A stretch of 64,000 nucleotides of DNA from Asterella californica (lineage: Eukaryota > Streptophyta > Marchantiopsida > Marchantiales > Aytoniaceae). The stretch is taken from positions 7,502,001 to 7,566,000 of the forward strand of contig JAYKYS010000011.1 in assembly GCA_036924285.1 (NCBI GenBank). The letters run 5' to 3'. Positions 989 to 45,100 of this stretch are shown piece after piece. Under the pieces are notes generated by a model. That model was not told the DNA's origin. It worked only from the letters and a program-made list of their open reading frames with translations, and ran no database searches. Position numbers and translations under genes: made by a program. How positions within the stretch are numbered: position 1 is the stretch's first letter; each line of letters starts with the position of its first letter.

Positions 989-1134
989 GGATATCTTCTG
1001 TTCTCTAGAAGCGGTTCATTTACCCACTCATGGTTCTTACCCGCGCATCTTCTGCTTCTTCCTCTGGTCGGAGACATCCACCAGAGTGCTGAGAAGAGGT
1101 GTCATTCTTCTTCTTCTTCTAGTACTTGGCCTCG

Positions 1135-1659
1135 CAAGTTGAAGATCTAAACAACCTTCCACATGTCGGGAATGTCTTCCTCTCCTACTTCATGTTGCAC
1201 TCGACTGCAGTCGAGTGCAACATGAAGACTTCTATCCTTGTAAGATCAAGTCTTCCAAGAAGCGTTTGGAAGCGGAGAGACGATCTCTTCCAGTTCCCCT
1301 TGATGTATCTTGTAACCAACTACTGATACACCAATCCATGAAGCTTAGAACAGTCGTTACTAAGATAAAATCCCCGACAGTGACGTCAGAAATACAGGGT
1401 TACTATATTCTCTAACCCATTGTAGCATAAGATTTTGTTCCCAAAGAAGATTTACACTAGTTACGCTGCTCTAAGTTCTAAGATATGTCCAAACTCACAA
1501 ACACTTGGATTTTGTCTAGAAATCCCGTCTTCTCACAAAATCACGCGGCTTCCAGATCCTTCAAAAGGTGCTCTAGATCATAACATACAACTAATACTCA
1601 AAATACAACACAAACATCCACTGAGAAGTCCAAGAAGACGATTTCTGCTTCCAAGTTAC
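1135..1659 (-). repeat. LTR-like repeat Y (family B), inverted partial copy
   Basis: The reverse complement of this stretch matches 41560-42150 nearly end to end, and 1435-1655 also matches 31738-31975 inverted. It is followed in the minus direction by gag sequence, as expected for a 5' LTR plus leader. Its outer end is cut by the copia element that begins at about 1660. Exact LTR termini cannot be fixed from these three copies. Confidence 0.75.
1188..1227. repeat. Perfect 40-bp palindrome
   Basis: 20-bp arms with no spacer, centred on CTGCAG; the left arm begins CTTCATGTTGCACTCGAC. The homologous place in the second copy of repeat Y (about 42089-42113) has only one arm, so the palindrome arose by inverted duplication in this copy. 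Confidence 0.95.
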
Positions 1660-1866
1660 TGGTAGATCGACGGCTAACATTAGCCGGAGTGGTTAGAATA
1701 GTTACAGTTAGTTAGAGAGCTAACCCACCATTAAGGTTTCTCTTGTACTCACCCCCACTATATATACATGGAGAGGCAAAGCCTCTCATGTCTTATTCCT
1801 ATTTTATTTTTCTTGTCTACTCGCTCTTTCTTCTTGGAGTATCCTCGAAGTATCAATCTTTCTACA
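1660..1866 (+). repeat. Copia 5' LTR
   Basis: Matches 6610-6810; includes a CACTATATATACATGGAGAG core-promoter-like stretch around 1755 (TATATATA) and ends CTTTCTACA just before the primer-binding site. Confidence 0.85.
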
Positions 1867-1878
1867 TGGTATCAGAGC
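1867..1878 (+). other. Primer-binding site, initiator-Met tRNA type
   Basis: TGGTATCAGAGC directly follows the 5' LTR; this is the usual plant LTR-element sequence complementary to the 3' end of initiator methionine tRNA. Confidence 0.9.
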
Positions 1879-2536
1879 AGTAGAGAGCGTGTGTCTCTTG
1901 CTGATGAGCAAGATGGAGTTCGTGCATGGAGAAGTATAGGAGAGAGCAGTTGGAGGTATGTCTGATGTCGAGCACTATCCTGCTGATGCGTTCAGGTGAG
2001 ACAAAACCGTTTCTTTCATCACCAGAAACTTTGAACGTGATTTCGGAGACTTGGATGATTTTTTCTCGTTGATATTTGTCGACCAGCCTGATAAAGGCTG
2101 TCTTGTTCCGAAGATGTGAATTGTGTACTCAGTCAAGTTTCAGCCAGTTTGGAGGTTTCTAGTGCCAGATTTTCAATTGGATCTTTTCTAAACCAAAATG
2201 AAAGTTTTAGGAGTTGAGTCTAAAACGAATATTGGTCCGATAAAGGTGGCACTTTGACAAAATTTACAAAATTTTGAGGGGTCGCACGTCCATTTCTGGC
2301 CTCATTTGGTCCAATTTTGACTTTTCTTGGTGTGTTCTTTCGACGTTTCCGTCGTGTTTTATACACCTACAGTTCACGGACAAGTTCTTTCTTCATTCTT
2401 GCTGCAGGAGGAGTTCACGAAGTTGCCTTGTTGTGACTTGTGACAACTCTTGATCGCGGGGTGTGGACTGACGAGCTTCCTAAATATTCTATGAGATTTT
2501 CCGCCTACAGAACCGAGCAATATTGACATTACAGCT

Positions 2537-3310
2537 ATGACGGAGTATGTGCCTTTGATCACTGGAGAGAAGCTCGACAAGAATAACTACCAAGTGTGGC
2601 AGTTCCGAATGATGACCTTCCTACATGGACAAGATTTATGGGATCTTATCACTGAGGAGGAGAAAGCGTCCGAAGTACCAATTTCTGATCCGAAATTCAA
2701 GGAGTGGAAGAAGCGCTCCTATCAGGCGATTCACTACATCGCGCTGACAGTTTCAGCATCGATGATCACTCACATTCAAGATTGCGATACGCCTAAGAAA
2801 GCTTGGGATGCACTTGCGCGTCTGTTTCAATCCGGAATAGAGGCACGGAAGTTGTAATTGCTGCAGTAGTTCAACACCGTGAAGAAAAGATCGAAGTGCA
2901 TCAATGACTACGTGAACCATGTCAAGCAGCTCGCGGATCAACTATCTTCTGTCAAAGTCGAGATTGATCCCACTGTCTTGATCAGAGCCACATTGTAGAA
3001 ACTGCCTGCAGAGTACAAACAGTTCATGATGGTTTGATGAACTTGTTCTTATGATGTTAGGAGAGGAGGTGCGCCTACTGGGGAAGTCTACTTCCACAGA
3101 CCAGCAAGAATCTGTCTATTTTGCAGGTTATGGAGGATCTGGAGGTAGAGGTCGTGACAAAGGTGTTGGACGTGGACGAGGTCACAGACAGCAACAGCAG
3201 CAGCAGAACCAGCAACAGTATGGTTCTTCCAACAACTAGAGACGAGCGTCTAGTTCCTGCAACTACTGCAAGAAGCAAGGCCACAATGCGAACCAGTGCT
3301 ATAAGAGGTA
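2537..3310 (+). pseudogene. Copia gag remnant with zinc knuckle
   Basis: Starts at ATG 2537 (MTEYVPLITGEKLDKNNYQV). The first ~106 residues have the copia gag pattern (NNYQVWQFRMMTFL, then KKAWDALARLF), followed by a stop and frameshifted continuation (INDYVNHVKQLADQLSS). A CX2CX4HX4C zinc knuckle, CNYCKKQGHNANQC, is encoded at 3258-3299. It would form the virus-like particle that packages the element RNA. At least three stops or frameshifts make it non-functional. Confidence 0.85.
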
Positions 3311-29076: not shown

Positions 29077-30217
29077 TTCTGTTTCACAAGAGAAGCTTCC
29101 AGTCGAGAGAAGACTCGATTCCGGTTTTCCACCTAAGGAAGTTTCTTCTAAACCTTCCATGTTGGAAACCCCAGTCACTCTTCAGAAGCGATCCTCTTTC
29201 GACTTCTTACGAGAAGGCGGATGTAATCTTCCAACAGCTTCTGGATGATAATGCTGGTTACATGAAGCTGTTTACAGTATGTCTTTTGAGGATCGAGTAA
29301 GAGGAGAAAAGTGAAACTTCCTCAGAGCACCCCGATGAAAATAGAGCATGAGGACTTAGGAGCCCCATAGCTTGACATGGAGATCCATGGCTGTCTTCTG
29401 AAGAAGGTACTCATTCATTCAGGCTCTAGAGTCAAAATCATGACGGAAGAAACTGCACATGCCCTAGGCTTCACTGAGTTTCAGCCTACTCCGAGGATTC
29501 TCAGAATGGCGGATCAGACCAGAAGACGACCTTTGAGACAACTGAAGGATGTCTTGATGGTAATTGAGGGAGTATCTTTCTACCTCACTTACATTATTTT
29601 GCGACCTGTAGCTAAGGTTGGATATCAAGTTTTGATAGGAAGGCCTTGGTTGTACGCTGCAAATGTTAATACCGATTGGCGAAGACATCGTTTGAGATTT
29701 CTCAATCCTACACCCAAGCAGGACGAGGAGTCCAAAGTCTCACTCTCTTGGATGAGAAGAGAAGACGACTTGGAGTGCACTGCGAGAAGCCACGGAAGCT
29801 CAAGCTGCAGCAGAGAAGAAGCAGCGAGAAGAAGCAGAAGCCTGAGTCAAAGACATCATGGTACAGATGAGGGAAGCGCTTCGGAAGAAGTACAACTTCA
29901 CTACGGGAAGGAAGCTTCTGATCCTAGCTCGTGACTAAGATGACACTTAGTTAGTGGACTGCAAGAGGAGCATGTTCCGCTATCTGGATCGACAGATTGA
30001 GGATCTGAAGACTCTTTACGGTCTTCTCTCGATTCCTCAGCATGCATCTACGTCTTCTCGTGAACCAGGACCAGCGATTGAGAAGGATCTCGACAAGGAG
30101 GAGTTCGACCTCGCTGTCCACTTGGTGGTGATAGCATTGGAAGCCGAGAAGAAGAGTGCAGAAGTCCCAGAAGACAAGACGTCTTCTGGAAGACAAGAAG
30201 CAGAGGTGTCTTCCTAG
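29077..30217 (+). pseudogene. Family B protease and coiled-coil fragment
   Basis: 29377-29700 encodes a retropepsin-like domain: KKVLIHSGSRVKIM, where the usual Asp of the D-S/T-G triad is His, followed by the hydrophobic flap region and QVLIGRPWLYAANV (the ILGRPWL element typical of gypsy proteases). At about 29755 it changes abruptly to a Glu/Lys/Arg-rich coiled-coil stretch that matches 40915-41190 (gag-like REALRKKYNFTTGRKLLILA). The two pieces look fused at a short AGAAG match. The domain order is unnatural and the protease site is mutated, so it is not functional. Confidence 0.65.
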
Positions 30218-32390: not shown

Positions 32391-34400
32391 TCAGCAAAGA
32401 AAGATATGTATGACAACTACACGGATAAGTGGATGTGTGGAGATTACCGTCTTATCAATCGGCAGACGAAGTCTGATAAGTATGTCATGTCGACACCTGA
32501 GGAGATCTTTGATGTAGTGAGGCATGTGAAGGTCTTCAGTAATTTGGATCTTCGAGCAAGATATCATCCGTTGCCAGTGAGAGAAGAAGATAAGTCCAAG
32601 ACAATATTCTGGAGAATTGACTCTCACGGCAAGGATTATTTGTATCAGTGACGGTTCTTACCATGCAGGTTGAAGAACACCCCTGCTGAGTTTCAAAGGG
32701 TGATGGACAAGATCTTAGCAGGATTGAATTTTATCAGATGTTATATTGACGACATCTTAGTCTATAGTGTTACAATGGAGGAGCACGAGAGACACTTACG
32801 AGATGTGTTCGAGCGATTGAGAGCTCATGGGTTGAAGTTATACCTTGGGAAGTGTAAGTTTTTCTAGGAGTTGGTAGAGTATCTGGGCCACACCATCTAC
32901 CCAGGTGGATTGGATGTTTAACAGACGAAGGTTGAGGCTATTGCACGTATTCCACGCTCCGTAGATGTGAGTCGAGTTCAGACATTTGTTAGTTTGGTGA
33001 ACTTCTATCGTCGATACATGAAAGAGTTTAGTGCAATTGTGAAGCCATTGACTAAGCTGATGAAGGTGGACCAGGAGTGACAGTGGAGAGATGAGCAAGA
33101 GCGAGCTTTTGTAGAGCTCAAGGACAGGTTGACATTTGCTCCCATCTTGAGGAGACCCGTTAGGGAGGAGATCCGTTAGGGGGCGTCCTTTCCAACTACA
33201 CACTGATTGGAGTATGTTGAGACTTGGAGCAGTGTCGACTTAACATGATGATGAGAAAAAAGAGTTTGTGGTGGAGTATGTCAGTCTCTAACGAGAGACT
33301 GAGATACAGTTCGTACGAGGGCGAGTGTTTAGCTACAGTGTGGACTGTTGCACACTTCTTATGGTATCTGTTTGAAAATCCTTTTACTCTCATCACTGAT
33401 CACCAGTCACTCAAGTGGTTGATGGAGTCCGACAAGCTTACAAAGAAGCTTGCACGATGAGCTCTGATCTTACAGAAGTATGACTTCCAGGTAGTGCATA
33501 GACCTACAGTTGCAAACCTAGATGCCGATGGGTTGAGTCGCAACTCATGCACGAGTCAGCAAGATTAGACTGGGGCTCGATGGCATGACGAGGTTGACGA
33601 GATTGATGAAGAGATAGTGCCAAGATGGCATGCATCTGTCTTTCTTTGTGTGTTGGCCATGAACTCTAGTATGGAGGACCAAGTCATATCTTTCTCTGGT
33701 CAGAGAATAGATGATGAGGTTTCTAGATCCTGAAGGTGGAGATGGTGTTCCAGACGAACGAGGTATCCATGACGATGTGACCGAATGGAGTATCTACATA
33801 TTGTGGTGGTGGTAGGCACAATAAGTGCCAAGGACCGAGATTGTGTCCTTCAACGAGCGAAGAGATTTTGACGAGAAAGACGACATTTACTTCGAGTGTG
33901 AGATGATGAGAGAGTTCGGATAGCGCCACATCCATCTCAAAGGGCACAGTTAGTACGACATGCTCATGAGGTTGGGACATTTTGGAGTGAAGCGTACACA
34001 TAGCTTACTCCAAGGACAGTATTGGTGGCGTGGTATGCACATCGATGTGCAGTAGTTTGTCGCATGATGTGTGGTTTGTGATCGAGTACGAGCATTGTTT
34101 AATGCTCTTACTCCACAATTACACCCCTTACCGATTATAGGATTGGGTTACTGTTGGAGCTTGGATTTTGCGAAACCTTTACTGTTGACCGTACGTCACC
34201 ATCGGTATGTGTTGGTGATGATAGAGCACTTCTCCAAGTGGATTGAGTTGGTGACACTACAGGACAAGACGAGTGAAGAGACGTCGTATGCGTTCTTAGA
34301 TCGAGTGCTGAGTCGTTTTGGAGCACCAGCTGAAGTGCTGACAGACCAAGGGAAGATGATATGGCGTGCAATTACGCGCGCCATGTCATCTCTTAGACTT
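32391..34400 (+). pseudogene. Gypsy RT-RNase H-integrase remnant
   Basis: RT: MCGDYRLINRQTKSDKYVMS, VFSNLDLRARYHPLPVREED, and RCYIDDILVYS (YIDD at 32742-32753). RNase H: LRYSSYEGECLATVWTVAHF (about 33298), LITDHQSLKWLMES. Integrase core from about 34131: CWSLDFAKPLLLTVRHHRYV, then FGAPAEVLTDQGK with the second catalytic Asp. Stops at 32649, 32865, 32921, 33076 and elsewhere show decay. RT precedes integrase, so Ty3/gypsy. Confidence 0.88.
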
Positions 34401-34403
34401 TAG

Positions 34404-34813
34404 TGACTGTTTAGTGTCTGTTGGCATGGTGGAGTAAGTATATATCATTTATCATTGTGGTATACTTGTGTATATGTATGACATCGTCCATATGTTATGT
34501 GTATGTGTGGTATATCTCTGACAGCGATGTATGTTGTGTAGCATGTATATGCGTATGATACTTGTTCGAGACGATGATTCCAGCGGCATGGAAGACGCAT
34601 CGTCACCGAGGAGGATGGGACCTAGGAGCATTCTTAGGAAGAGCACATCTTTTCTTACCATTCACTCCGGATCTGAGATCCAACCAGCGATGGAGTTGAT
34701 GGAAAGACGAGCGATGGCTCAGGAGAAGCCGCTGCAGCTTGGATTCGGTCTTCGATCTTCGGACCTTGATTCAGCAGGAAGAAGCCCAGAAGCAGAAGCT
34801 GGAAGCTCTGGAA
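34404..34813 (+). pseudogene. Family B gag coiled-coil, left part split by the hAT insertion
   Basis: After ~125 bp of AT/GT-rich non-coding sequence, 34560-34813 encodes a gag-like stretch whose last codons read IQQEEAQKQKLEALE up to 34813, a heptad-like coiled coil. The frame is broken upstream. It continues in frame at 40743 (ALEANLRTTEK) once the hAT element and one copy of the 8-bp duplication are removed. Confidence 0.65.
34806..34813. repeat. hAT target-site duplication, left copy
   Basis: CTCTGGAA, repeated exactly at 40735-40742. Eight bp is the duplication length characteristic of hAT elements. The local sequence is itself slightly repetitive (CTGGAAGCTCTGGAA), so part of the match could be chance, but frame continuity supports it. 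Confidence 0.8.
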
Positions 34814-34828
34814 CACTATTTGGAGAGA
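34814..34828 (+). repeat. hAT left terminal inverted repeat
   Basis: CACTATTTGGAGAGA; pairs with 40720-40734. Confidence 0.8.
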
Positions 34829-35390
34829 TCCGGCATTTAGTGTCAGACGTTCCGGCAGGTTTTGGATATTTCCAGTCCTCTGTCAATTTCTGAAGGACAA
34901 GGTTCCGTTGTGAAAACTAGGGTTTTCGGAAATAGACTTGTAACTTCTTGGGACTGTCGGACGAAACGCATGTGTGCACATCCATCTTCCCGGAACCGTT
35001 GAAGACTGAAATGTCAAATCGTCGGCTTCCACTCACGTTCAAGTTTGATTCTGCAGGTAAACAGACTGTTCAGTTCGCTTCTGACCAGATATTCTTGGGC
35101 AGTGCACTGTGCATATATCCAGCTGCCGCCATGTGAATAAATTTTGAAGTTGAATGTGACTTGCCTTGCCGCTGGTAACTTGTCCACCATCTGCGTGTTA
35201 GCTTTCCTTCATTTACACAGTAACAGCGTTACATCGATTTCAGAACCTTGGGAGAAGGATCGATCTGAAAGTTGAGGATCAGTTATCGAGGACTAGATAC
35301 GAGGTGTGAGTGATTTGAGAGCTGAGAGTCGAGGCTCATTGAGCTTTTGGTGGGTCTTCTTTATTTTCTGAGTTGGTCGAGAGTCAAGAT

Positions 35391-38231
35391 ATGGAACTTG
35401 ATAGTAGTAGTGCACCTGGTGGCGGCAAGAACAAACGGCAACTAGCATTGTCTGATGTTGGTTTCTTCACACAGTCTAGGTCTAAGAGACCAATCGAGGA
35501 ACATGAGGGTGTGGAAGAGCTTGAGAGTGGAGAGAGTCAGTCTCTAGAGAACCAACGAATGTGGAAAGAGAACTGGATCACCCAATTTCACTGGTTACGT
35601 TTTGATAGGGAGAAGGGTAAGCTTTTCTGTAGAGTTTGTGAGAAGGAAAAATCCAAAAGTCCCTTTGGGACTACGGGGAGTATTAACTTTCGGACCTCTG
35701 CATTTCATGAGCACTCACAATCCTCTGAGCATAAACGATATCTGTATGCTCAGTATGAGGGTTCTAAGGAGATGGAAAAGCATATCAAGGCAGCAAATGC
35801 TACGAGTGAAGAGGCTCTGATGACGTTATTTCGAGCAGCATTCTTTATCGGTTCCAAGAACATATCCTTCCATTCTTTTTCAGAGCTCTATGCACTTTTG
35901 CAGTCTGTGAATACTGTTATAACTAGAGATCTTTATCAGGATGAGAAGGGTTGTGCGTCTATCATTTATGCCATCAGTGAAGTGATTAGACGATCTCTGT
36001 TTGACAATGTTATGAAAAGTGCTTTTTTCGGAGTCATGATGGATGAAAGCACAGACGTGAGTGTGAGAGGTCATCTCGTTATCTTCTTGACGTACTTGGA
36101 AAATGATTCAGTTAAGACATGTTTTGCTGGCCTGGTGGAGACAGAGAGCAAAGACTCTCAATCGATTTTGAACTGTGTAGTTTTGAGACTAACAGAGTGG
36201 GGGCTTGACCTGAAGAAGCTTGTAGCTTTTGGTTCAGATGGTGCTTCAACAATGGTTGGAAAGCATACAGGGGTGGCCGCTCGTTTGAAAGCTAACGTTA
36301 ATCCTTACTTGATCAGTTGTCACTGTATTGCTCACAGAACCAACTTGGCTATTGTTGGTGCAGCTAAACATCCCCTTTGCAAGGAGGAAAGTAAAGAGAT
36401 TGATTCACTTTTGAACTCAGTGGTTTTTTATTTCAAGAAAAGCTCAAAGCGGACGGCTAATCTCACGGTTTTACAGGAGACTATGTTTGACTCAAAGAGA
36501 ACCATGAAGCGCTTTCAGAAAGTGCGGTGGTTGTCAAGGGCTGAGTCTGTGACGACATTGTGTTCTAGTTTAGAATCTGTTCTCTTGTATTTTCGAGACT
36601 CAAATCCAAAGGAAGATGATGGGACTGGCAGAAACTTGTATAATCGGTTACGTTCTTTTCGAGTTATATACGTCTTGCATTTTCTTGCTGACATTTTAAG
36701 TGATCTGGCTGTTCTCAGCAAGATATTCCAGAAGCGAATAGTGGATGTCACCACTGTTGCATCAATTGTGACCTCTACAGTTTCGCACTTACGGCTGAAT
36801 TATCTGTATGAGCAGATTGACTGTAGAGCTGATATTATTTCTTCTTCAGGTTATGCTGTGCTGCCAACATTTGGAAAGACAGGAGGGTTTTTGAGTGGGC
36901 TGCAAAGTCAAATCAGAGGGAACTTATTTCACTCTGTGATCATGGAGCGAGACCTAATAGGTAAAGATCTAGAAGTTGCTGTGAACTTTCAGCGGGCTTT
37001 CACTGATGCAGTGGTCTTGACTTTGCAGGAGCGATTTGAAGATACAGGTGTCTTGGGAGCTTTCCGAATTTTATCACCTCCAGCTATCCCTAAGCCTATC
37101 AGTGGCATAAGAGAATGGGGTGTACTTGAGCTGGAAACTTTATGTGCTCACTTTGGTGAGCCTAAAGTACTACATGGAGTTTCTCAGTCCGCTTTAGTAC
37201 ACAGAGATGACGCCAAGAATGAGTTTTTAGGTTATAAGATCACAGCCTGTAATAAGTGGAGCGCTCACTCTTGCTATGATTTTTTGGCTATTATAGGTCA
37301 GAATGAGTCTTTGAGAAAAATGTATTCTCAACTTGTATGTTCTGTCACAGATTGCCAGAGTACAGTGTGTTAGCACTGCTGAATGTGAGAGAGCCTTCTC
37401 TGTTCAGAATTTAATCAAGACCAAGATTAGAAACAGATTAGGGACCACTCATCTAGATGCTGTGATGACACTGATGATGCAAGGCTCAAAAGAAAATTTG
37501 AACACAGTGCTCCCTGCAGCAATCGAGGTGTGGAAGAAGATTGTGAAATTTAGGTATATCTTTTCAAATCCAGGAGCTTATGTTCAGCTTCCTGGAACTT
37601 CGGTAAGTACTTCTATCAGTAAAGACACCATCTGAAAGTGTTTTCATTTTATTTCCAAGTTTAACAATTTCAACTTGGAATAACTTTAAAGAACTTGCTC
37701 GTTCGAAGTTGATCTGTTTTCTCCTCACAATGAGTTATCCTGATTTGTTCCGTATCTTCTGTCTTCACTTGATCCATTGAGTTGGTCGAATTTTTCGCCT
37801 TCCCTGTTCTTGATAGTGTACAGTTGAAATCTTGCTCTGCGGTCTGTTTCCAGCTTCCCCAGAAATATTCACGATGTTAGAAGAAGACTAATTTCGACAG
37901 TTGAGTCGTTTCTTGAAGCTGTTTGAAACTGAAGTTTGAAATCTGTAAGATTCAGTAGTTGAATTGCATCAGAACTTTAGAATCAGAGGAATTTTGCCTG
38001 ATATCCGTTATAAATCAGAGCGAAACGTTGGAATTTTCATCAGTACTCTACATATTTTCAGATGGTTCCCGCTGGATTCAGTTGCATTTTACTGACTTAG
38101 ATGTCTTTTTGCAGGTCAATTCTTGTCACTTGAAGGATACAGGGGACATCGCAGAGAGAACTGACGTAACGAGTAGAAAAACGAACGAGAACCCTCTTCC
38201 TAATCTAATGCCTACGGCAAGTGTGGCATAA
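35391..38231 (+). CDS. hAT-superfamily transposase with N-terminal zinc finger
   Basis: Cuts and pastes the element in the nucleus. The first ATG of the long frame is 35391 (MELDSSSAPGGG). N-terminus: low-complexity, then a BED/TTF-type zinc finger (FCRVCEKE ... FHEHSQSSEHKRY, residues ~75-115). RNase H-like core: first catalytic Asp in MMDESTDVSVRGHL (Asp ~218), second in AFGSDGASTMVGKH (Asp ~283), followed by the CxxH motif in SCHCIAHRTNLA. The catalytic Glu and dimerisation region, STAECERAFSVQNLIKTKIR, lie at about 37375-37430 in the +1 frame, so there is a 1-nt frameshift near 37330-37335. A good donor GTAAGT at 37603 and acceptor at 38114 would add a final exon (38115-38231, ending TASVA-stop); without splicing the frame stops at 37635. 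It resembles the ZNF862/ZMYM-like hAT group. One lesion, otherwise well preserved. Confidence 0.85.
37643..37666 (+). repeat. 24-bp direct repeat, copy 1
   Basis: Starts TTCATTTTATTTCC and ends AAGTTTAACA; identical to 40307-40330. It lies just after the unspliced transposase stop (37635), inside the candidate last intron. Confidence 0.95.
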
Positions 38232-38242
38232 GCTGTTCATAA

Positions 38243-40328
38243 ATGCCTGTCGAGTTGAAGGATAAGTATCCCTTCTCCGTGGATACTTGGTCTCTTCTTT
38301 CCAGAAAGAAAGAGCATCATTTCTTGACGCATGCACACAGTGATCATACCTCTAGAATAGAGTCGTTTGTACGACGTCGCATCTACTGCACCGATATTAC
38401 TCGACTTCTTCTGTTGCGGCGGTTTCCAAAGGTGAGAATCTTGTGCTTTTGACTGATAACACGAACTTCCTGCATGAATAAAGTGCATTTGTTTTATGGA
38501 TAACGCATCATGTACTGTACAATAGTATCTTGACCTTATTTGGACGAACATTGTCCACTTCAGTTTCTGATTTATCATCCCGGCTATGATACTTTTAAAT
38601 TCTCATTGAGGTGATTTAAGCCTTATACTTCTGATGAATGTGTGTCGTATCATTTGCTGCTTTGGACTTTGTAAGAGAAGATCGTGAACAAAACGTTTGA
38701 CTCCAGCTGTGAAACTCTTATTTGGCATTTCCTGATAAGGGCTTGTGTTTCTTCAGCTCGGGTCTGCTGAGTTTATCATCCTTGAGATTGGGGACACCAA
38801 ATTAATTCTTGACGATGTGGATTCCTTCACTGTAACGGCTTTAGATGCAAATCACTGTCCAGGTAAACTAACTTTCTCCAGTTAATGTCTGTGTCTCGTT
38901 CCATCTAAAATTAACTCAGTACATTGGGCGCAGCTCTCAAGCTGTTCATAACCGTGCTATAGATGCAATTGATTTTCTAATTTGCACCTATGCCTGTGCT
39001 TTCAGGGCAATTATGCTCCTCTTTGAGGGCAACTTCGGCAATGTGTTACATACTGGAGACTGTCGTTTAACTGATGACTGCTTGGGTAAGATTTTGGGGA
39101 AGTACAAAGTCCAACAATGCGTGCTTGATTGTGTTTACCTGGACTGCACTTTCGGGAAGGAGCATATACGTATACCTTCGAAGCGAGAAGCTTTTCAGCA
39201 AGTAAGTTAATAGGTACTGAAGTTCTTGTCAGTGAAGTAGTCCGGCCGTATTAGTCCCCCTCGTGTTTCTTGAGAAGTGGTGTGTAACGGTGAGTTGACA
39301 CAACAGGTTACCGCATGTGCAGTAGGGGACATTGGAACCTATGAATGACTTCCGTTGTCCGTTGGTGGTTCCTCCGAGCAGGTACAACAGTGTATACTGA
39401 ACCATCCTAAGGCACCCATCGTCTATCTGGCCTGTGATCTGCTTGGGCAAGAAAATCTTCTGAGTGATCTGGTTATGTACTTCAGATGTAAGATCTTTGT
39501 AGACAAGAATCTTCTGCCTGATTACTATGCCGATCTGAAGCTGGTTATTTCTGATCTCCTTACTGAGGATCCTCAGTCGACTAAATTTCATGTGAGTTCG
39601 TTCCTCTGCTTTCTGGAACGGTTGCTGAATATAATTTGGACACTCAATTTTTTACACGAGCAGTTGCTTGCCTCTGACTGGAAGAAAGTGTAATGCGAAG
39701 TAATGCGAGTTTTGTTTGACCTCTCAACAGGGTGTGTGAAGGTTTTCCCAAACTTTATGAAAGAGCAAAAGTCAAGTTCATGGAGGCCCACAAACTGAAA
39801 CAGGAAGAGCCCCTCTTTATTCGCCCTTCTGCTCAGTGGTACATGTACGGGGAAAGGTTGGAAGGTGCAGGATGTGGCATGATCGTGGGCGTTGCTCTCA
39901 AGAGACCAACTGCCCAAAGGCATCGTACACTTCCTGCACCAAAAGCAGCCGAGAAAGATCAGTATGGCATATGGCATGTATGTTACTCCGCTCACTCCTC
40001 CCGATCAGAACTGGAGAGAGCCATGGAGGCTCTTTGGCCAAAGGAGGTTATTTCTACCACTCCTCATTGTCATGCAAAAGAGGTCATGAGTGGAAGAGCC
40101 GGATTGTATCATATAGATATGAGTGAAGCGCCAAATGTAGAACTTTCATTGTCATATAGGGACTGTTCAAGCGTCCTGTGTGAGCCTCATAAGGATGGAG
40201 AAGTGTTAAAGATCTCAACAGAGGTCTCATGCACGAGACCACTCACTAGTTCTAGTCCATGCAAGAAAGTCCCTTCTGATATTACTATGGAAGGAAATTT
40301 AAAGAATTCATTTTATTTCCAAGTTTAA
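38243..40328 (+). CDS. SNM1: SNM1-family (MBL/beta-CASP) DNA nuclease, transposon-borne
   Basis: SNM1/DCLRE1 enzymes are metal-dependent nucleases acting on DNA ends, crosslinks and hairpins. Exons: 38243-38431, 38757-38862, 39006-39201 (or from 38963), 39382-39595, 39731-40328. Exon 1 (63 codons) holds MPVELKDKYPFSVDTWSLLS and the metal-binding HxHxDH in LTHAHSDHTS (His30, His32, Asp34, His35). Exon 2 ends ALDANHCPG (motif III His), exon 3 has VLHTGDCRL (motif IV Asp) and VYLDCTFG, exon 4 the beta-CASP APIVYLACDLLGQE, and exon 5 GIWHVCYSAHSSRSELERAM and PKEVISTTPHC. It is closest in pattern to plant Apollo/SNM1-like proteins. The standard exon 2/3 splice is off by one nt; using the AG at 38962 restores frame but adds 14 residues. 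The last five codons and stop fall inside a 24-bp repeat shared with the transposase end. AATAAA at 40614 may serve polyadenylation. Confidence 0.85.
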
Positions 40329-40330
40329 CA
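40307..40330 (+). repeat. 24-bp direct repeat, copy 2
   Basis: Exact copy of 37643-37666; overlaps the final codons and stop of the SNM1 gene. Weak similarity continues a few bases downstream (ATTTCA against GTGTCA). Confidence 0.95.
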
Positions 40331-40719
40331 GTGTCATTCTTTAAATTTTGTGTTAGTATGTATGTTTTCTATCAGCTTTCTGTTCTGTACAGTTTCAAAA
40401 TTTTTATAAGCTTCAGACTGAGTTCGCATTCTGTGCTGTTCACAGAGTTAGCAAAACCTCAATGAAAATCTCACAAAGTAGCAAAACCTCATTTTTCCGG
40501 CTCTAAACAAGAAGTAACGGAAAAAAACCATGTGAAAGAAAAGTTTCAAGGAAGAAAAAACACTGGATTTACAACCAGTCGGAAATGCAAATGGCCGAAA
40601 AAATATTTACGGGAATAAAACTGACAACATTAATAGTGAAGCGGCTGTCTTCTGGTGAATAATATAATCGTCCGTAGAAACGTGAAAGAAGACGTAAATC
40701 AAGCAAGTTTTCAGATATT

Positions 40720-40734
40720 TCTCCCCGAACAGTG
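40720..40734 (-). repeat. hAT right terminal inverted repeat
   Basis: TCTCCCCGAACAGTG on the + strand; reverse complement CACTGTTCGGGGAGA matches the left end at 12 of 15 bases. Confidence 0.8.
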
Positions 40735-40742
40735 CTCTGGAA
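40735..40742. repeat. hAT target-site duplication, right copy
   Basis: CTCTGGAA, identical to 34806-34813. Confidence 0.8.
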
Positions 40743-41176
40743 GCTCTGGAAGCCAACCTCCGCACCACGGAGAAGATTACCACGTAAAGATGGAAGCTTC
40801 TGCTCCTATCAATGAGTTGGCACAGCTGCGGAAGAGCAACCAAGAGTTGCGGATGCAACTTCAGCAGCGAGAGCAGGAAGTTCTACGGATAAGATGTAAG
40901 TTAACTGATCTGGCAGAAGAGAAGAAGACTTGGAGTGCACAGCGGGAAGTCGTGGAAGCCAAGGCTGCAAAGGAGAAGAAGCAGCGAGTAGAAGCAGAAG
41001 CCCGAGGGAAAGAGATTATGACACACATGAGAGAAGCGCTTCGGAAGAAGTTTAACTTCACTGAGGGAAGGAAGCTTCTGACCCTAGCTCGTACATGGGA
41101 TGACGCTTCCAAGGAGATGTTGATGGACTGCAAGGAGAACATGTTCCGCTACTTGATCGACATGTCGAGGATTTGA
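40743..41176 (+). pseudogene. Family B gag coiled-coil, right part
   Basis: The first codons continue the left flank (ALEANLRTTEK); after a frame change a long coiled coil follows: INELAQLRKSNQELRMQLQQ, QREQEVLRIRCKL, then REALRKKFNFTEGRKLLTLA. 40915-41190 matches 29757-30030. It runs straight into LTR-like repeat Y. Probably a gag or linker protein of family B, function unknown. Confidence 0.65.
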
Positions 41177-41227
41177 AGACTCTCTACGGTCTTCCCTTGG
41201 TTCCCACCAATGCAGCTATGTCTTCAT

Positions 41228-42150
41228 TCCCTCTCTCCCTTGCTCATCTTCCCATCTTCACTCTTTCTTCTATCTGATTTCTGAAGCTTCTTTTGAGTAT
41301 CATTGAATGAGAATATCCTTGTAGTGATGCCGGAAGACCATTTTCTGAGGCAGAAGCTTGGGAAGGCTACAAGGGGCATACACCCTGTGATTAATCTAAT
41401 CCTTTGGAAAATTGTAAGAGCAATGTGTGATAGAGAATAGTAATTTGGCATCTACGAAGCATAGATCATTTTCTGGAGGTGTCAGAACCCGAGTTGAACC
41501 TCCAGAAGCCGAGAATTGCTTTTGGAAGCTTATGTGGGAAGACTAGAAGCCGTGACTTGGAAGCAAAAATCATCTTCCCGGACTTCTCAATGGATGTTTG
41601 TGTTGTATTTTGAGTATTAGTTGTATGTTATGGTCCATAGCACCTTCTGAAGGATCTGGGAGCCACGTGGTTTTGTGAGAAGACAGGATTTCTAGACAAA
41701 ACTTGAGTGTTTGTGAGTTTGGACAGATCTTAGAACTTAGAGCAGCATAACTAGTGTAAATCTTCTTGTGGAATGAAATCTTCTATGCTACAATGAGCTA
41801 AAGGAGAAATCCTGACACACTACATATAGTAACCTCGTATTTTTATGCCGCTGCCGAGGATTTTATCTTAGTAACGACTGTTCTAAGCTTCCTGGATTTG
41901 TGTGTCAGTAGTTGGTTACAATGAGACTAACTTGGATTGAATTTTAGTGTGATGTGGAACTCTATCTTGTTGAAAAGACAAGAACCGCAGCCAAAAGCTG
42001 ATGAGAGACATCAAGGAGAATTGGAAGAGACTGCTTCTCCGCTTCCAAGCGCTTCTTGGAAGACTTGATCTTACAAGGATAGAAGTCTGCAGTCGAGTGC
42101 AACATGAAGTAAAGAGGAAGACATTCCGGACATGTGGATATCTCGCCGAA
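41228..42150 (+). repeat. LTR-like repeat Y (family B), longest copy
   Basis: Matches 31436-31990 (first ~600 bp) and, inverted, 1135-1655 (last ~590 bp). Taken together with the gag following it in the minus-strand copy, this is probably the LTR plus leader of family B. It marks the right edge of the transposon nest. Confidence 0.78.
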
Positions 42151-45100
42151 TTGCAATTATGTGAGATAGACTTTACATGCAACTGATTGTTAGTGGAATA
42201 CTAAGGTGGATATGTTACAACTGACTGCTAAAATGTTCATTGTGTTAAGAAGGTATTGAGGTAGTCAGAAACTGCAAACAATTCATGTTGTCTTTCATCT
42301 CTTTTCTTGTATCCGTTCATCAGATGAGTGCATCATCTATTGTAATGTATTCATATATTTTATCTAAGGTCTATGTCGAGTTTCTATGTGTAATTGTCTC
42401 TCTTAGTCCGTCAATTGCATTATTGGGGTCTTCTTTTTCATCAATATGCATATATATGTGTTCGATTTGTTGTCAAAAAGTGATGTTTTATATGTTTTAA
42501 GATCTTCCGTACGGATTCAAAAAAGATATCCATATATGATGTATATTGAATGTTGCATAAGTTGTTGTGGAAAAATAGAGTACTTACATGATCCCAACAT
42601 ACCATTTAAACACGTGCAGAAACTGCGCAAGGTGAAAAAAGACTTTTGTATCTATTATATTATATGACTCTTGACAAAATATTGTAATAAGTTAATTCTA
42701 CTTTGTTCTTCGTGTCGGATGCACCGAATAACATGTCAGCAATCATAGTCTCGTAAATATTTTTCAGCCAAGTGTTACGATGTTATTCCTTCTCGTTCTT
42801 AAGACAATAGCATGTCATCTCGACGTAAGTGTGAAGACTAATGTTCATAAGTGATTTCATGCATACTTCAACTCCGACTGATCTACTCTCACCAGCATAA
42901 AGCTACACTGATTCTCTTCTTCATCACCAAAGAATTCTTTGCTCACACAGAAATACTCTTTAGAAGTGGTTGTTGAGCAATTTCCACCTCTGTCACCATA
43001 GAATCTAATGAAATAGCACTACATGTGCAAGAAAGTCACCAAAGGGAGGAAAAAATCCAGTTCTAAGTCCACCTCACTCTCTCATGTTATGACAAATAGC
43101 TTAAGGTTTTTGTTAAGAGTTGTTTTTTTTAACTCTTGACTTCTTTGCATAGAACATCAAGACACTTGGGTTGCAAGATGGGGACAAAATAAGTGTTGCT
43201 TGCAATGATCTAATACAATGCACACCCATCGAATGGACCAGATACTATACATAGCACAATGAGTTTCAATCTCTCAATGTTGGTATGTACAAAGCAGCGA
43301 GGATAAATGAACATTTGGGAAGCATTATCCTACATCTCCAGTCAATGACCATTGTCAATAGTTCCAAAGTATATGTATGGATCAGCAAAGCTATATAAAC
43401 TTGAGCAACCTTTACAAAATTGGTGTATGATAAGAATTTTGGCTTCTTCCTAGATAATTATTTTCCAAATATAAATAACACACTTTTGAGTTCTAGTTGA
43501 AGTTGAGTATAGGTTGTTTGGAGTCAAAGAGACCACTAAGCGAAGAAGACGAGAGATGAACATCATCAATACTACACAACAAATCCACGTCAAGAGATTG
43601 ATAAAATTTTTGTTAGTTTGAAATTGGACAAAGCGAATGAACGAGAGGAGAAATGATAGTAGTAGGAATATGATCGGCTGAACAAGAGAATGCATGGAGA
43701 AGAAGACGAAGTGGAGCCAAGAGGTGTGGATGCATTATCATGGACAATGGTGCACTCCTTACTGCAAGAATGCTCAATAGTTTTGATGGATGAGAGAGTA
43801 ATGAAAAACATGTGCATGTCGTCTTGTCTGAACTAAAGTCCACTCCTAGTGACCCACTGCTCAACTAAAAGATCTAGTGCTGATAAAAGTGATATAGTCA
43901 ACATAGTCTGATTTCATCTAAACATTAACGATAAAAATATGAGGTTGTAAAACCATAGTTCATGATCCAACGGACAAATTATCCATTGTCTTGTAGTCGA
44001 AATGCCGCCATGCTGCAAATATGAAGAACAAAAAGCTCATAACCCATTGATAAGTCCTCATGAAACATCGACAAGTACTTTGAACACAAATGTGACGGCT
44101 AGTGCGAAACACAACTAGTGAGCATAGATATAAACATAACATAAAGACAAAAGCAATGAGCAAGCAATAATATAATATAGTAGCATGAATATTGTGGTTG
44201 TCCAATAAAGGAGCAAAGAGCTTGAAAAGAAAAGAAAAGAAAAGAAATCTTATTATGTGATATCATGGCAGATAAAGTGATAATTTGAGAATCTTTAAGA
44301 AAGCAAACAAGATGGAACCTGCAACTAAAGATAATGATAGCGGTTACAATATAAAGACATGCGTCTAAAGACAGAGCTTCGAGCGCACGACAGCTATCAT
44401 AAGCAGTTTATTACCGCAAGGACAAGCTATCCACATGAGCTATTTATAATCTATCAAGAGCCGAGCAGTCTTAGAGCTCTCCACATGGACACTATAAAAA
44501 TACATAAAATATAAATTAAGTACACCAAAACCACATTTTACTTTATATAAAGTTATATTGAACAAATAGTGTTATTTCATTTAAATATATTTTAATTTGT
44601 GATAAAATCTTTCCTTTTGAAAGAGTTCGAACATTAATTAGAAAATATGTATATTCCTCTTCTGAACTTGTAAGAGATGAATAAGCTTAAGTGACCATAT
44701 AAAGAGGAGAGTTGATATTAGAATGTGCTTCACACTCCGAGCATATGTACAAGTAGAAGAAGAAAGTAGAGAAAGTGTATGAGGCGTCCGACAAAGTGCA
44801 GGCTGTCCTCACACGATAATCTCCCCATGGACACCAAATCACTTTGAATCCATTAAGAGACAAATCCAAGCCTGAAAACAAGGCAGCACCAGAAAGAGAT
44901 CCACAGCCGTGGTTGTACCGTAAGCTGCATCAAGATCCCTTGTATGGCATATTGGAGTCATGAGTCATGACATACTTGTGATCAGCATTTGGATGCATCT
45001 TCATCATCATCCTCAGTCGACCAGCTGACGAGCGGTACAGACAGTACAGTAGAGAACCGGACAGGATACGTTAGCCAATTGTCCTGCCAGTCATCAGACT

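Follow-up and report, generated by a model that had tools for sequence, protein, structure and literature searches.

Does a nuclease gene travel with a DNA transposon at this locus, and is it anything other than a passenger there? An original prediction had proposed that the 64,000-nucleotide stretch of Asterella californica DNA analysed here (the window) holds a hAT transposon with 15-bp terminal inverted repeats (12/15) and an 8-bp direct repeat, that the gag sequence around it becomes one reading frame once the element is removed, and that a hAT transposase lies inside together with an SNM1-type gene that moves with the element. We examined these claims by comparing the element, its cargo and its flanks with a 516.7-Mb assembly of 773 contigs.

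The insertion and its copies

We place the element at 34814-40734, within a retroelement gag, where its 15-bp inverted repeats match at 12 of 15 positions and an exact 8-bp target duplication lies outside it (CTCTGGAA at 34806-34813 and 40735-40742). Between the regions 33001-36000 and 38501-43000 this was the sole pair of 8-bp repeats with end matches of at least 9/15, and the chance expectation for pairs at 12/15 in those two regions is about 0.004. Joining the gag flanks minus one repeat copy restored the predicted single continuous frame (...KLEALEALEANLR...), and all nine related gag copies compared run unbroken across the insertion point. These nine remained from ten loci in hand after exclusion of L039, which is the window itself; the flank search had returned 69 matching pieces, with 40 candidates scored out of 2,228. 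The joined flanks exceed each of the nine relatives (L040-L048) by one in-frame 9-bp GCTCTGGAA unit (window 40735-40760), so the recipient gag seems to have had a small in-frame tandem duplication. Taken together, the duplicate, the matching termini, the rejoined frame and the uninterrupted relatives establish that the insertion is real and that 34814-40734 is a hAT transposon inserted in gag. Part of the right-hand gag flank occurs a second time, 80% identical, at window 29755-30057.

The whole-element search gave 87 matching pieces and 51 candidates, of which 40 were scored, so that all copy counts are lower bounds. Nineteen hAT copies were collected, window included, and 14 of them entered the end tests; for the five others (L015, L017, L018, L019, L027) two clear ends were not available. 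The 8-bp duplication was perfect in 13 of the 14 and matched at 7/8 positions in the remaining one (L020), and the 15-bp ends matched at 11 to 15 positions. With the 8-bp duplication, short inverted repeats and a dimerisation region, the element belongs to the hAT superfamily. At least four elements bear cargo, each with its own 8-bp duplication: the window element, the C526 copy (5,533 bp, ATGTGGAC), the C43 copy (5,536 bp, CTCGGAAT) and the C419 copy (3,518 bp, CTCAGTAC), the last with only 93 bp of cargo left. The left terminus in C526, C43 and C419 reads CACTGTTCGGAGAGA. Hence the nuclease sequence does move with the element, three copies at three sites sharing termini and insert and a fourth holding a remnant. 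The prediction had further proposed to look for copies with the same termini, other duplications and both genes; C526 and C43 are such copies, the cargo being broken in both.

Other copies are without cargo, e.g. C21:12526436-12529691 (3,256 bp), in which the transposase is followed directly by the right end. Copies ending before 38243 had been named beforehand as evidence against carriage of the gene. The cargo-less copies share both termini with the cargo-bearing ones, and so show the state before capture. Six internally deleted, MITE-like derivatives (L021-L026, 237-445 bp) have exact 8-bp duplications and retain about 240 bp at the left and about 210 bp at the right (less in L026). In one cargo-less copy examined by eye (L014, C102), a second gene capture was not found; an insert of about 2.1 kb (approximately 1094-3219) with a retroelement integrase-like frame was seen there.

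Table 1. Features of the element and its flanks in the window
Feature	Position	Strand	Basis or remark
Retroelement gag left of insertion, stretch compared	34721..34813	+	joined-frame and relatives comparison
Left target-site duplication copy, CTCTGGAA	34806..34813	.	repeat test, end test across copies
Left terminal inverted repeat, CACTATTTGGAGAGA	34814..34828	+	12/15 against right end
hAT transposase coding sequence (zf-C17orf113, DUF4371, hAT dimerisation region)	35391..37635	+	frameshift near 37326; compared with open C526 frame
Left filler between transposon and captured DNA: inverted ~30 bp of transposon and a short further piece	37644..37683	+	join comparison
Captured host DNA: ~559 bp upstream of ATG and first 423 codons, introns included	37684..40299	+	98% identical to G000:C1:39099755-39102373
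Captured exon 1, HAHSDH motif	38243..38431	+	host splice sites
Captured exon 2, LDANHCPG motif	38757..38862	+	host splice sites
Captured exon 3, HTGD motif; 1-nt loss at start breaks frame	39006..39201	+	alignment to host
Captured exon 4	39382..39591	+	host splice sites
Captured exon 5, DRMBL domain, YSAHSS motif, 1-nt gain at start	39731..40328	+	alignment to host, domain search
Right filler: inverted transposon sequence, meets host DNA at a 5-bp shared word	40300..40336	+	join comparison
Right terminal inverted repeat	40720..40734	-	end tests
Right target-site duplication copy, CTCTGGAA	40735..40742	.	repeat test, end test across copies
Retroelement gag right of insertion, stretch compared	40743..40842	+	joined-frame and relatives comparison

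The predicted transposase is present by its domains and broken in its frame. In the window, zf-C17orf113 and DUF4371 scored above cut-off and the hAT dimerisation region just under it, while the C526 frame scores for all three; for the dimerisation region (PF05699, cut-off 21.4) the values are 20.4 bits in the window fragment and 22.5 bits in C526. The window frameshift falls ahead of the STAECERAFS stretch, which presumably holds the catalytic Glu. An intron as the cause of this break was rejected, since the C526 copy reads straight through: among the 13 copies inspected, C526 alone reads unbroken through the entire transposase (763 codons between stops). Six other copies compared with C526 gave pN/pS values of 0.37-0.65. 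The best-scoring protein relative, among the 7,992 scored candidates that share most words, has 47% identity over 91%, with shorter matches of up to 52%; a Riccia protein matches at 46% over 69%.

The captured SNM1 gene and its donor

The cargo, 2,616 bp long, comes from an SNM1-family gene of the Apollo/Artemis-like type. Its DRMBL domain scored above cut-off in the window (E 1.9e-15), and in searches against solved structures residues 1-423 of the donor protein matched Apollo (E 1e-34) and Artemis (E 2e-20), so that by homology the cargo is assigned to the SNM1/DRMBL nuclease family. The captured stretch covers the MBL and DRMBL regions, and approximately the last third of the host codons is absent; the final codons of exon 5 and the stop derive from transposon filler. 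The SNM1/MBL motifs are present as DNA in the window, but not in one reading frame. The gene that had been predicted from these motifs is therefore upheld in its homology and motifs and not as an intact gene, as it is truncated at the 3' end and in none of the three large copies in frame.

Searching with the cargo alone gave five places, all five candidates being scored: a gene on C1, the window, C43, C526 and the 93-bp remnant on C419. The C1 gene (C1:39099755-39102373) has five exons, is open for 666 codons and is 98% identical to the cargo, introns included; no other match to the element was found around it within the 9 kb fetched (L011, G000:C1:39097000-39106000). The end of the C1 protein (LYRSF-VPIP-PLPSLLDLYNFNV), which lies outside the captured part, recurs by eye in the Riccia sorocarpa orthologue. 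For the captured part of the host protein, the closest relatives are from Riccia sorocarpa (75% over 98%) and Calypogeia fissa (67% over 86%). A scan of the genome for DRMBL gave four places with 8/8 candidates scored, namely C21:12365947, C1, the window and C419:12343382. The C-terminal coding tail of the host gene, beyond the captured part, contains an internal tandem repeat (NVEQV.EAVKKVADVD... twice). An SNM1 copy away from transposon ends had also been named in advance as evidence against carriage; one exists at C1, for which a role as donor is the best interpretation, and carriage by the element stands.

Decay of the cargo

Two frameshifts separate the window cargo from the host gene, a lost base where exon 3 begins and an extra one where exon 5 begins; under host splice sites its product ends 20 residues past LDANHCPG. 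Nearby splice signals that might restore the frame were sought by eye and rejected, the host splice sites leading to an early stop. The C526 cargo has a His-to-Gln change (H32Q) in the HxHxDH motif, at a residue which we take to be metal-binding, and exon 1 of the C43 cargo contains two stops. The same 326 bp of the DRMBL part is missing from C526 and C43, which also have in common one extra base in exon 5. An intact frame through the catalytic domain is thus found in none of the three large cargo copies. Single-base insertions and deletions in one assembly may be sequencing errors, an unlikely origin for the two stops or for the 326-bp deletion common to C526 and C43.

On the pooled branches after capture, counted over ungapped columns (hence outside the deleted 326 bp) and without one ambiguous noncoding site, 25 of 944 coding and 28 of 1,278 noncoding positions had changed (p = 0.49). 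Coding and noncoding parts of the cargo thus changed at similar rates after capture; the coding changes comprise 16 nonsynonymous and 9 synonymous ones, a rough ratio of about 0.51 (p = 0.14 against 1) at which weak constraint is possible. Between the host and all cargo copies there are 7 coding and 25 noncoding changes, and these mix the presumably constrained host branch with the early cargo branch, so that they do not settle constraint on the early cargo. Of six replaced residues, the cargo has by eye the state of both Riccia and Calypogeia at 112, 129 and 217, and the changes at these positions probably occurred on the host side. As the disabling changes are either private or common to C526 and C43 only, parsimony places none of them in the common ancestor of the three copies, and the cargo could therefore have been coding at the first amplification.

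Capture history and comparison with known elements

We propose that a hAT transposon very probably transduplicated the host SNM1 gene, by the mechanism and with the passenger decay described here. Some 2.6 kb of genomic DNA from the host C1 gene, absent from the cargo-less relatives, lies in the cargo copies directly after the transposase, with inverted transposon scraps of about 30 bp at both joins; the element was probably filled through template switching during repair of an internal break, the gene coming along, as we infer, as a passenger. The inclusion of introns in the cargo shows that genomic DNA was captured, and the unfilled element seen in the cargo-less relatives shows one DNA-level capture followed by transposition. 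Host and transposon have short words in common at the joins or next to them (TTTAAAGAA on the left side and, by eye, AAATT on the right); the left join is complex, with a further short filler and the shared word not at one simple switch point. Inverted filler and shared words at the joins fit template switching in break repair, as the account of animal Pack-TIRs (PMC8277862) proposes for those elements. The enlarged element then transposed to give at least four copies with 8-bp duplications of their own, by what we take to be ordinary hAT cut-and-paste with the transposase supplied by an element like the open-frame C526, and the passenger has since decayed, with selection below detection, through mutations differing between copies.

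SNM1 enzymes are tied to the opening of hAT excision hairpins, and the choice of cargo is striking given this link. The element might accordingly be armed, its encoded SNM1 protein opening the excision hairpins on flanking DNA and so aiding its own transposition. PMC4763223 describes hAT transposases as leaving hairpin-capped breaks on flanking DNA at excision; the captured piece starts about 559 bp before the ATG and covers MBL and DRMBL, and by parsimony the common ancestor was free of the present disabling changes. Yet all three large copies are broken, the HxHxDH motif of C526 among the sites hit, post-capture selection on the cargo is not detectable, a single capture with four copies was found, and an open gene of this family persists in the host. 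We therefore regard an armed transposon as very unlikely, and the choice of cargo as a suggestive coincidence, not as evidence for it. We give equally little credence to the narrower proposal that at the first amplification the hAT encoded an intact SNM1 catalytic core which briefly aided the element by altered donor-site repair, the present copies being its decayed remains. A single capture that is disabled in every large copy and bears no trace of selection is the outcome expected from chance capture.

Likewise very unlikely is retention of the truncated copy for an action on the host gene, whether its product was dominant-negative or it gave rise to small RNAs: the cargo is 98% identical to the host gene and its upstream region could hold a promoter, but the sequence has no sign of constraint. 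A native SNM1 gene at the locus, among repeats that resemble a transposon only by chance, would agree with the imperfect window repeats (12/15) and with the position of the duplication within a short tandem repeat. Against this, the same termini occur at other sites, each with a duplication of its own, and a transposon-free gene lies elsewhere; the comparisons of whole elements, cargo and ends across copies refute a native gene, to which we attach practically no probability. Transduplication of the host gene followed by decay of the passenger is thus the reading we retain.

Gene capture by hAT elements is already known from fungal histone H3, Pack-hATs and maize Ds. The closest precedent is the hAT of Pseudocercospora fijiensis and related fungi described in PMC6710886, which captured histone H3: it likewise has a transposase domain, inverted repeats and 8-bp duplications, amplified a host gene, and according to that account its copies are inactivated with the original gene intact. 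The fungal cargo is described there as an intronless, transcript-like H3 in hundreds of copies inactivated by RIP, whereas the Asterella element took genomic DNA of a nuclease gene with its introns, was found in four copies and was broken by point changes and deletions. Plant Pack-hAT and other Pack-TYPE elements are, in the terms of PMC8903248, inverted-repeat transposons whose captured coding DNA is duplicated by transposition, and here too host coding DNA, with its donor on C1, lies between the inverted repeats. That source defines them as non-autonomous; the transposase sequence is kept here in all three large cargo copies and in C419, and open in C526, which sets the element apart from a non-autonomous Pack-hAT with no transposase gene.

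Maize Ds elements, as presented in PMC3260210, are hAT elements with intron-containing pieces of host genes and filler DNA; they differ in being non-autonomous and in the genes captured, and the same source mentions faulty repair following excision as a proposed cause, describing gene capture as rare among hAT elements. Among the animal Pack-TIRs of PMC8277862, microhomology at capture breakpoints is explained by template switching, and one of the hAT cases reported, from frogs, is multicopy and shows three distinct duplications; unlike the capture described here, the frog piece is 291 bp of 5' UTR, and the multicopy cases given there number just four (1.4%). No hAT with SNM1 or nuclease cargo was found in the titles and abstract openings searched, which mostly cover literature outside subscription. 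The Asterella element represents a recent and well traceable capture, in that a single genome contains the donor, the unfilled element, the filled element, the joins and later copies. Next to fungal H3, it extends the hATs seen with both host genes and transposase sequence to a liverwort-like plant and to a DNA-repair gene.
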